This document shows, in pieces, positions 13,568 to 15,606 of a stretch of DNA of 34,732 nucleotides. The DNA comes from an uncultured Pelagibacteraceae bacterium (GTDB lineage: Bacteria; Pseudomonadota; Alphaproteobacteria; Pelagibacterales; Pelagibacteraceae). Both the position numbers and the translations under genes were made by a program. How positions within the stretch are numbered: the first letter of the stretch is position 1; each line of letters opens with the position of its first letter. The stretch is from assembly GCA_902546085.1 (NCBI GenBank), contig CACCIO010000012.1, positions 1 through 34,732 on the forward strand. The letters are read 5' to 3'. Below the pieces are notes generated by a model. That model was not told the origin of the DNA, ran no database searches, and was given only the letters and a program-made list of their open reading frames with translations.

Positions 13568-15391
13568 GTGGAAAGAATAATTACAAAATCGTTTGCTAGA
13601 CTTATGGGTCGAGGAACCCATAGAGGATTTATAACTTATGAGGAATTAAGTAAATCTCTTGGTAAAAGAAACTTATCTAATGAAAATTTAGCTCAAGCAT
13701 TCATACATATATTAGATGAAAAGGTAACCTTAGTTGAAAAAAAATCTGACTTTAAAGTTCTAAGAAAAAAAGAAAATTCAAATAAAGAAGAAGGAAAAAC
13801 AATTGAGAAAAGTGATGATCCTATAAGAATGTACTTACGTGAAATGGGTGGTGTTGAACTTTTATCTAGAGAAGGTGAAATAGCAATTGCAAAAAGAATA
13901 GAGGCTGGAAAAGACGTAATGTTAATTGCTCTTTCTCAAAGCCCAATTACAGCACAACAGTTCTTTGAATGGAATGAACAACTACAAAAAGACGAAATTC
14001 TCGTTAGAGAAATTATTGATATTGATACTAATTATATGGAAGACGAAACCACAGGACCAAGTGCTAAGCAAAAAAATGCAGGTGAGAATGATAAAGAAGA
14101 CACCACAGCTGATGAAGAAGATGATTTTAATCCAACACTTGCTGCAATGGAGACAGAAATAAAGCCTAAAGTTTTAAAAACTGTCAATACACTTACAAAA
14201 GAATATAATAAACTAATAAAGTATCAAAAAGAAAAACTTGATTGCCTTTTAAATTCACAAAACTTTTCAACAGCCAAAGAAAAAGGTTACGAAAAAATAG
14301 TTAATGATATTCTGGAAAATATAAAATCTCTTCAATTATCTCCATCAGTTTTAGAGGAATTAGTTCAAAAACATTATGTAGAAAATAAAAAAATTATTTC
14401 ACTAGAGGGTAATCTTTTAAGACTTGCTATGGATCATAAAATACCTAGAAATGAATTCATTAAATTTTATGTTGGAAATGAAATAAATCCTAATTTAAAA
14501 AAATTCTTAGATACTAATTTAGTATGGAAACAATTTTTTTCCAAAAACAAAGAAGAATTTAAAAATATTAGAGAAAGACTAGTTGAAACAAGTCATAAAC
14601 TTGGAATTTCAGTTACAGATTTTAAAAAATTAGTAAGTAGAATTCAAAAAGGTGAAAAAGAGTCGCGAATAGCAAAAAAAGAGATGGTGGAAGCTAATTT
14701 AAGGTTAGTTATTTCAATTGCAAAAAAATATACAAATAGAGGGCTTCAGTTTTTAGATTTAATTCAGGAAGGTAACATTGGATTAATGAAAGCAGTAGAT
14801 AAGTTTGAATATAGGAGAGGTTATAAATTTTCTACTTATGCAACTTGGTGGATTAGGCAGGCAATAACGAGATCAATAGCAGATCAAGCAAGAACAATTA
14901 GAATTCCAGTTCACATGATCGAAACAATTAATAAAATTGTTAGAACACAAAGGTTAATACTAAGTGAGTTCGGAAGAGAGGCTACACCTGAAGAACTTGC
15001 GCAAAAATTAAGAATGCCATTAGATAAGGTTAGAAAAGTTTTAAAAATTTCTAAAGAGCCTGTTTCGTTAGAAAAGCCAGTTGGTGATGAAGAAGATAGT
15101 AGCTTAGGAGATTTTATAGAGGACACAAAAGCCTTAGCACCCCTAGAGCAAGCAATTAAGTCAAATCTTGGAGAAGCAACTACGAAAATTTTATCTACAC
15201 TTACCCCTAGAGAAGAAAGGGTTTTGAGAATGAGATTTGGTGTGGGAATGAATACCGACCATACCTTGGAGGAAGTAGGATTGCAGTTTTCAGTTACAAG
15301 GGAAAGAATAAGACAGATTGAGGCTAAAGCACTTAGAAAATTAAAACATCCAAGTAGATCAAAACAATTAAAAAGTTTTCTCGAAAGTTAA
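13568..15391 (+). CDS. rpoD: RNA polymerase primary sigma factor (sigma70 family)
   Basis: This 607-residue protein directs RNA polymerase to housekeeping promoters. It starts with GTG at 13568; the first ~60 residues form a region 1.1-like domain. Region 1.2 is [20 protein letters not shown] (about 86-105). An acidic, poorly conserved insert spans about 155-200. Region 2 includes the -10-recognition segment [20 protein letters not shown], followed by region 3. Region 4 has [16 protein letters not shown] and the helix-turn-helix [18 protein letters not shown] near the C terminus for -35 recognition. All hallmarks of group 1 sigma are present. The preceding gap has a TATAAT box. A tRNA gene begins four bases after the stop. 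Confidence 0.97.
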
Positions 15392-15395
15392 TAAT

Positions 15396-15470
15396 GGGCC
15401 GTTAGCTCAATAGTAGAGTACTGCATTGACATTGCAGGGGTAGTTGGAGCGTAACCAACACGGCCCACCA
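15396..15470 (+). tRNA. tRNA-Val(GAC), with atypical D and T loops
   Basis: The cloverleaf folds with acceptor GGGCCGT/ACGGCCC (15396-15402 with 15460-15466), D stem GCTC/GAGT, anticodon stem CTGCA/TGCAG with loop TTGACAT (anticodon GAC, 15428-15430), T stem GTTGG/CCAAC, A73 at 15467 and encoded CCA. The mature tRNA is 72 nt plus CCA. The T loop reads AGCGTAA instead of TTCGANN: T54 is A, psi55 is G and A58 is T. The D loop AATAGTA has A in place of conserved G18, keeping one G that could be G19. All stems are intact, arguing against random decay. It follows rpoD by four bases and is probably cut out of that transcript. Confidence 0.85.
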
Positions 15471-15529: not shown

Positions 15530-15606
15530 GGGCCTGTAGCTCAGTTGGTTAGAGCAGTACACTCATAATGTATTGGTCCCAGGTTCGAGTCCTGGCGGGC
15601 CCACCA
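15530..15606 (+). tRNA. tRNA with anticodon CAT, probably tRNA-Ile2 (lysidine type), otherwise elongator Met
   Basis: The cloverleaf is canonical. Acceptor is GGGCCTG/CGGGCCC, the D arm includes AGTTGGTTA, and the anticodon stem GTACA/TGTAT carries loop CTCATAA (CAT at 15564-15566). The T arm is CCAGG TTCGAGT CCTGG, with A73 at 15603 and encoded CCA. A CAT anticodon can be initiator Met, elongator Met or Ile2. A paired G1-C72 argues against initiator. C4-G69 and C5-G68 are the pairs known to favour TilS recognition in E. coli, so I lean to Ile2 reading AUA. The mlaC stop codon lies two bases beyond on the other strand. Confidence 0.9.

Follow-up and report, generated by a model that had tools for sequence, protein, structure and literature searches.

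The question raised by this locus is whether a tRNA gene that departs from the nearly universal elbow sequence in both the D loop and the T loop still encodes a working tRNA and, if so, what takes the place of the standard contacts. The window analysed here, that is the whole stretch of 34,732 nucleotides, is contig CACCIO010000012.1 of an uncultured Pelagibacteraceae bacterium (assembly GCA_902546085.1). Its gene for tRNA-Val(GAC), with the CCA encoded, lies on the forward strand, and ARAGORN calls a tRNA-Val(gac) with ends exactly at positions 15396 and 15470. Against the Rfam tRNA model RF00005 it scores 53.6 bits, with a gathering score of 29, and 21 of 21 stem pairs form. The anticodon GAC (15428-15430, ARAGORN), A73 and the CCA end are those expected of a GAC isoacceptor; A73 and A35/C36 are, we assume, the valine identity elements. 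Only 4 bases separate the gene from the stop of an ORF of 607 amino acids (13568-15391, forward strand), presumably the sigma factor gene rpoD, which is the upstream neighbour in many, not all, relatives. A tRNA with a CAT anticodon and an ordinary elbow (T loop TTCGAGT) was called by ARAGORN downstream on the same strand (15530-15606). A scan for promoters and terminators around tRNA-Val(GAC) yielded no excess over shuffled sequences.

The 7-base D loop AATAGTA (15409-15415) reads A14 A15 T16 A18 G19 T20 A21 in standard numbering, and since position 17 is absent, the assignment of A18 (15412) and G19 (15413) is unambiguous. The T arm GTTGG-AGCGTAA-CCAAC (15443-15459) encloses a T loop (15448-15454) composed of A54 (15448), G55 (15449), C56 (15450), G57 (15451), T58 (15452), A59 (15453) and A60 (15454). 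Thus, A18 and G55 stand in place of the canonical G18 and T55, and A54 and T58 in place of T54 and A58, as direct reading of both loops confirms for the initial annotation, which had described the exchange at 54/58, the absence of G18 and T55 and the retention of G19 and C56. With the canonical elbow, as described in the accessible text of PMC4810234 and PMC7912444, the tRNA shares the cloverleaf, the seven-base T loop, G19-C56 and the purine at 57, whereas its 18-55 combination is A-G instead of G-psi, its 54-58 combination A-U instead of U-A, and its base 60 an A instead of a pyrimidine. It qualifies for an elbow class that we propose here and define by A18 and G19 together with G55, C56 and a purine at 57. 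Positions 15 and 48 (15410 and 15442) are both A, compared with the usual R15-Y48 pair; A15/A48 is also present in ordinary Val(GAC) alleles of the genus, for example in genome G332.

Do these changes reflect decay? A BLAST search with the 75 bases of the gene found matches in 76 of 150 genomes (own genome included), all of the same genus, and 63 of these 76 were 100% identical over 75 bases. Judged by this sequence identity, the conservation of tRNA-Val(GAC) is far beyond chance. A pattern search for the same T-loop bases across 397 genomes of Pelagibacterales retrieved them in 225, which belong to two genera; the only carriers outside the own genus were G193 and G401, both of genus g14. In divergent copies, the loops are still AATAGTA and AGCGTAA, whereas substitutions in the acceptor, anticodon and T stems come in matched pairs. 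In an alignment of eight rows, six rewired and two ordinary Val(GAC), 100% of the cells were paired and two-sided changes occurred in 12 of 21 pairs, which was equalled by 0 of 500 shuffles. The broken stems and lost constraint of a tRNA pseudogene were not observed. A sequencing error or a local pseudogene is ruled out by identical copies in many assemblies together with the compensated stems.

In relatives, the tRNA at the rpoD-adjacent place has an elbow of one of two kinds, rewired or ordinary, the latter with a GG D loop and a TTCRA T loop. According to the initial annotation, a normal T loop at the same locus would have pointed to an error or a pseudogene. Ordinary T loops do occur there in some relatives, yet the D loop is then invariably of the matching GG type, and they are therefore alternative alleles rather than evidence of error. 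The two bases in question were strictly coupled: 13 of 36 distinct Val(GAC) sequences had A18/G55 and 23 G18/T55, with no mixed ones, and 20 distinct Phe sequences were divided into 7 and 13, again with none mixed. Across 102 distinct tRNAs in the relatives' loci, which were fetched mostly for Val or Phe genes so that the share of A18/G55 is no frequency, 79 had GG with T55, 23 had AG with G55, and no mixed case was seen. Three of these 23 were His(GTG) genes (loci L707, L718 and L723). One Val gene (genome G272) combines A18/G55 with T54/A58 and represents a natural intermediate. The proposal of compensated evolution instead of decay is hence well founded, because the elbow is kept while the stems covary, and because positions 18 and 55 switch together in 102 of 102 tRNAs.

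The gene is not the only one in its genome with an unusual elbow. The assembly is 80% complete and was found to contain 22 tRNAs, 19 of which have a T loop starting with TTCGA. The listing of tRNA-Val genes called for earlier gave a single Val(GAC) and a Val(TAC) with an ordinary elbow. tRNA-Phe(GAA) carries A18 and G55 (AGGAGTA / TGCGAAT) with T54/A58 kept and is thus another natural intermediate. tRNA-Thr(GGT) (locus L022, G000:C15:15850) keeps G18/T55, but has G54/G58 in the T loop GTCAGTA.

It had also been suggested that the tRNA might have a non-decoding role. It could, for instance, donate its amino acid to a process other than translation, and its elbow is indeed unlike that of standard elongators. 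To this we oppose that the tRNA would read GTT and GTC, which account for 312 of the 566 valine codons counted in 28 ORFs of the window, and that the same 18/55 swap is present in tRNA-Phe. Moreover, we searched 50 genomes of the genus, at least 94% complete and picked because they carry the rewired Val(GAC), with a pattern neutral towards the T loop; it requires TGACA and ACCA, so that variants are missed, and in 50 of 50 genomes it found only the rewired Val(GAC). Further pattern matches turned out to be a 3' fragment in G158 and a stretch that is not tRNA-like by eye in G175. A second, ordinary Val(GAC), as expected if the rewired copy were a pseudogene, was hence seen neither in the own genome, 80% complete, nor in these near-complete carriers as far as the pattern with TGACA and ACCA reaches. 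As the A18/G55 elbow in addition reappears in tRNAs of many amino-acid specificities (see below), we regard a non-decoding role as highly improbable. In three single-contig genomes (G012, G082 and G152), a tRNA-Phe pattern requiring TGAARA and ACCA gave one match each, of the TGCGAAT type. Given that Phe codons must be read, the A18/G55 elbow should work on ribosomes. A degenerate tRNA-Phe-like 3' half with a shortened T loop lies beside an ordinary tRNA-Phe in another genome (G452:C7:21128-21170).

A further explanation is that Val(GAC) is a decaying or relaxed spare gene that drifts because Val(TAC) reads all GTN codons. The ordinary Val(TAC) exists, and relatives without Val(GAC) were indeed encountered. 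Among 80 genomes, the neutral Val pattern detected Val(GAC) in 39, a chance match only in 2 and nothing in 39; for the genus genomes without the rewired T loop the corresponding numbers were 16 of 48 with Val(GAC) and 32 of 48 without. The pattern missed the gene in G154, where it was found by the model, and gave no Val(GAC) in G163 of genus g14, which is 99% complete. Of 11 genus genomes without Val(GAC), 6 also lacked rpoD, in 1 rpoD was cut by the contig end, and 4 contained the end of rpoD with no tRNA beside it. Some relatives may thus have no Val(GAC) altogether, and the gene may be dispensable and lost in some lineages. Against drift in the carriers stand the 75 identical bases in most matching genomes, the compensated stems with the coupled elbow changes, and the same swap in tRNA-Phe, and we consider a spare gene very unlikely. 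Our best reading, held with good confidence, is a decoding elongator tRNA-Val with a natural alternative elbow, which would read GUU and GUC and is predicted to be charged and used.

The bases found at 54 and 55 bear on tRNA modification. The initial annotation expected the tRNA to escape the enzymes acting on positions 54, 55 and 58. As to 54 and 55 this holds, in that the sequence rules out psi55 and m5U54; escape is, however, largely moot because TruB, the psi55 enzyme, gave no match in the 25 genus genomes searched and TrmFO none above its cut-off in 49 from the order. The TruB_N domain (PF01509) went unmatched in all 25 genomes of the own genus, and likewise in 5/5 genomes of g15, 2/2 of g16, 1/1 of g17 and 1/1 of g19. 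It was present in 3/3 genomes of g12, 3/3 of g13, 5/5 of g14, 1/1 of g18 and 14/14 controls, as well as in 6 of 8 genomes of family f2, where the two misses are 79% and 54% complete. The own genus together with g15, g16, g17 and g19 thus displays an apparent loss of TruB, while sister genera show strong matches. For TrmFO, the family cut-off was exceeded in none of 55 genomes, of which 49 belong to the order, compared with 7 of 14 controls; the weak matches lay in ORFs of mostly 620-640 residues, which we take to be the paralogue MnmG.

A tRNA-Phe with TGCGA was found in 20 of the 30 genomes that gave a Phe match but none to TruB, and in 0 of 14 TruB-bearing ones, a contrast that may go back to a single loss and then counts as one event, not 44; genome G201, with TGCGA, is outside this TruB count. 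Loss of TruB as a necessary cause is ruled out, as A18/G55 also occurs in TruB-bearing genomes, namely in Val of g14, in His of g12 (L707 from G150) and in other phyla. Nor is the loss sufficient: Val and Phe have remained ordinary in some of the relatives without TruB. It may rather have eased the switch: in a genus without a detectable psi55 synthase, the special value of U55 would already be lost, and the A18-G55 elbow would need no modification.

The A18/G55 elbow is not confined to the order. Genome contigs were scanned for A18 and G19 with A54, G55, C56, R57 and T58, a base other than A at 35 and one type of D stem. The scan gave 22 matches, 17 of which ARAGORN called as tRNAs: 11 tRNA-His, 10 of them in genomes of Daviesbacteria, Gottesmanbacteria, Levybacteria, Amesbacteria, Blackburnbacteria or Microgenomates; 5 tRNA-Asp, all in Verrucomicrobiota including Prosthecobacter and Akkermansia; and 1 tRNA-Lys. 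The 5 uncalled matches, among them one each from Gottesmanbacteria, Cyanobacteriota and Obscuribacter, are tRNA-like by eye only. TruB had no match in 12 of the genomes behind the 22 matches (those of the 11 His genes and of the uncalled Gottesmanbacteria match) and was present in 4 of the 5 Verrucomicrobiota, in 4 other genomes with uncalled matches and in the one bearing tRNA-Lys.

Viral contigs provided larger numbers. Scans that held the D loop at 7 bases and the D stem at one type retrieved T loops of the form AGCRT at least 120 times with A18 and 0 times without, TGCRA at least 120 times with A18 and 5 times without, and TTCRA at least 120 times with G18 and 10 times with A18. Among the matches listed, 74 newly numbered loci with A18 and AGCRT contained 45 called tRNAs whose loops are exactly of this kind, and 79 loci with A18 and TGCRA gave 100 called tRNAs, some loci containing several. 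The 5 loci with TGCRA and a base other than A18 yielded 3 called tRNAs that are truly non-A18, and the 10 loci with A18 and TTCRA yielded 9. On phage contigs the A54-type elbow occurred, among the matches listed and with 80 of 93 stretches of one scan looked at, on tRNAs for Val, Ile, Glu, Thr, His, Phe, Asn and Lys.

As a control for selection by the patterns, we used 653 distinct tRNAs on the same viral contigs that no scan pattern could have matched. The 18-55 combinations were G-T in 571, A-G in 66, G-C in 7, G-G in 4, A-T in 2, T-T in 2 and C-T in 1; their contigs had been fetched for other tRNAs, so that the 10% share of A18/G55 is no frequency. A18 was accompanied by G55 in 66 cases and not in 2, and non-A18 in 4 and 581 cases, respectively (Fisher p 5.5e-83, with rows that are distinct, yet not independent by descent). 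The exceptions to the coupling (2 A-T, 4 G-G and 7 G-C) leave room for another view of a decoding tRNA: the link between 18 and 55 would be indirect and run through a partner recognizing both bases, such as RNase P, an enzyme or the ribosome. The rule holds across many anticodons, hosts and phages, however, and G18 and psi55 meet directly in the known fold, according to the accessible text of PMC4810234, in which psi55 is described as universally conserved and contacting G18. We therefore judge an indirect coupling unlikely. The same text cites a study that, by its title, found the 18-55 pair to be needed for rapid translocation.

Named cultured phages were approached by BLAST from A18/G55 phage tRNAs, and none of the eight matches opened was A18/G55. 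A tRNA was called at seven of them, six with ordinary elbows; tRNA-Gly of Ruegeria phage RpAliso combines G18/T55 with A54/T58, and no tRNA was called at the match in Pseudomonas phage 16Q. Two phages from a further BLAST search, Phosso and vB_EliS-L02, both had an ordinary elbow and no A18/G55. Mycobacterium phage Rey has a tRNA annotated as Ser (L758:362-433) with an A18/G55 elbow (AGCAGTA / TGCGATT), the quality of which is uncertain, its first two acceptor pairs being open in ARAGORN. The laboratory host of phage Rey is M. smegmatis mc2 155. Taken together, the A18/G55 elbow is best read as a recurrent natural type and not as an oddity confined to a single gene.

The 54-58 swap is a switch separate from 18-55. 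Among the 653 phage tRNAs, A54-T58 was combined with G18/T55 in 10 and with A18/G55 in 8, and 57 tRNAs had T54-A58 with A18/G55. A54 was accompanied by A60, in 16 of 18 tRNAs with A-T and 5 of 5 with A-A at 54-58, while 625 of 627 tRNAs with T54-A58 had T or C at 60. Suppressor tRNAs of E. coli selected from D/T-loop libraries are reported to show that other 54-58 pairs can work (Zagryadskaya 2003, Doyon 2004 and Kotlova 2007), with G54-G58 reportedly among the products, which matches tRNA-Thr(GGT) of the own genome. Those tRNAs are laboratory selections, whereas tRNA-Val(GAC) is natural. Eukaryotic initiator tRNAs have A60 and resemble tRNA-Val(GAC) in this base. They keep U55 and A58, though, and are neither elongators nor bacterial. 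Their A54, shared with tRNA-Val(GAC), is named as a T-loop exception in the accessible text of PMC7912444.

As to the history of the rewired gene, an rpoD protein tree of 48 rows required at least 12 changes of the Val state and at least 4 of the Phe state; these counts are rough, as 26 of 45 inner branches were poorly supported. ORFs of glycosyltransferase type were recognized by eye beside the tRNA or directly behind rpoD at four loci (L194 in G219, L197 in G009, L201 in G180 and L206 in G272). 3' fragments of the rewired tRNA-Val occur away from the intact gene (L195 near 1216-1270 in G158 and L065 near 285-320 in G028). Such fragments and neighbours are as expected of an island attachment site: the fragments resemble remnants of an element integrating into the tRNA, and the ORFs give the place the look of a hot spot for islands. 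According to PMC11898729, an O-chain island has moved, in one SAR11 group, to a pair of Val and Met tRNAs close to peptidoglycan genes. Furthermore, the Val(GAC) allele of two g14 genomes is matched exactly by one from the own genus, and gene exchange, suggested by the island signs and this shared allele, explains part of the patchiness. An arrival of the rewired gene from a phage or island, with replacement of the resident allele by recombination, is in line with these observations, with the many changes of the Val state on the rpoD tree and with a Val(GAC) of a phage contig that has the same loops (L277: AATAGTA / AGCGTAA). On the other hand, a BLAST search of 50,697 phage records with the 75-base gene gave no match, and the G272 intermediate and the independent case of tRNA-Phe suggest change in place as well. 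We regard this origin, which concerns only the history of the gene and is compatible with a decoding tRNA, as a tentative possibility on the unlikely side.

For the decoding tRNA-Val itself, the loops suggest an elbow in which A18-G55, probably in direct contact, would replace G18-psi55, and A54-U58, with A60, would replace U54-A58, the two swaps being separable. G19-C56 and the stacked purine 57 would be retained, with G55-C56-R57 perhaps forming a GNRA-like turn. More broadly, we think it fairly probable that A18-G55 represents a second elbow design found in nature, independent of pseudouridine 55, which arose repeatedly in bacteria and phages and spread to essential tRNAs (Phe, Val and some His) in a TruB-less marine clade, with the 54-58 swap as an independent change. 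Our literature search found nothing on an A18-G55 elbow, most subscription papers being beyond its reach.

Natural tRNAs that lack G18-psi55, and whose genus has no detectable enzyme for psi55, make the role of psi55 and of the 18-55 contact testable, and they offer ready pairs of compensating changes for experiments in E. coli. They suggest that the factors reading the elbow mainly need G19-C56. The 18-55 pairing rule would also help gene finders to separate odd, real tRNAs from pseudogenes. If our interpretation is true, the chemistry of the tRNA elbow is a small evolvable code and not a universal constant.
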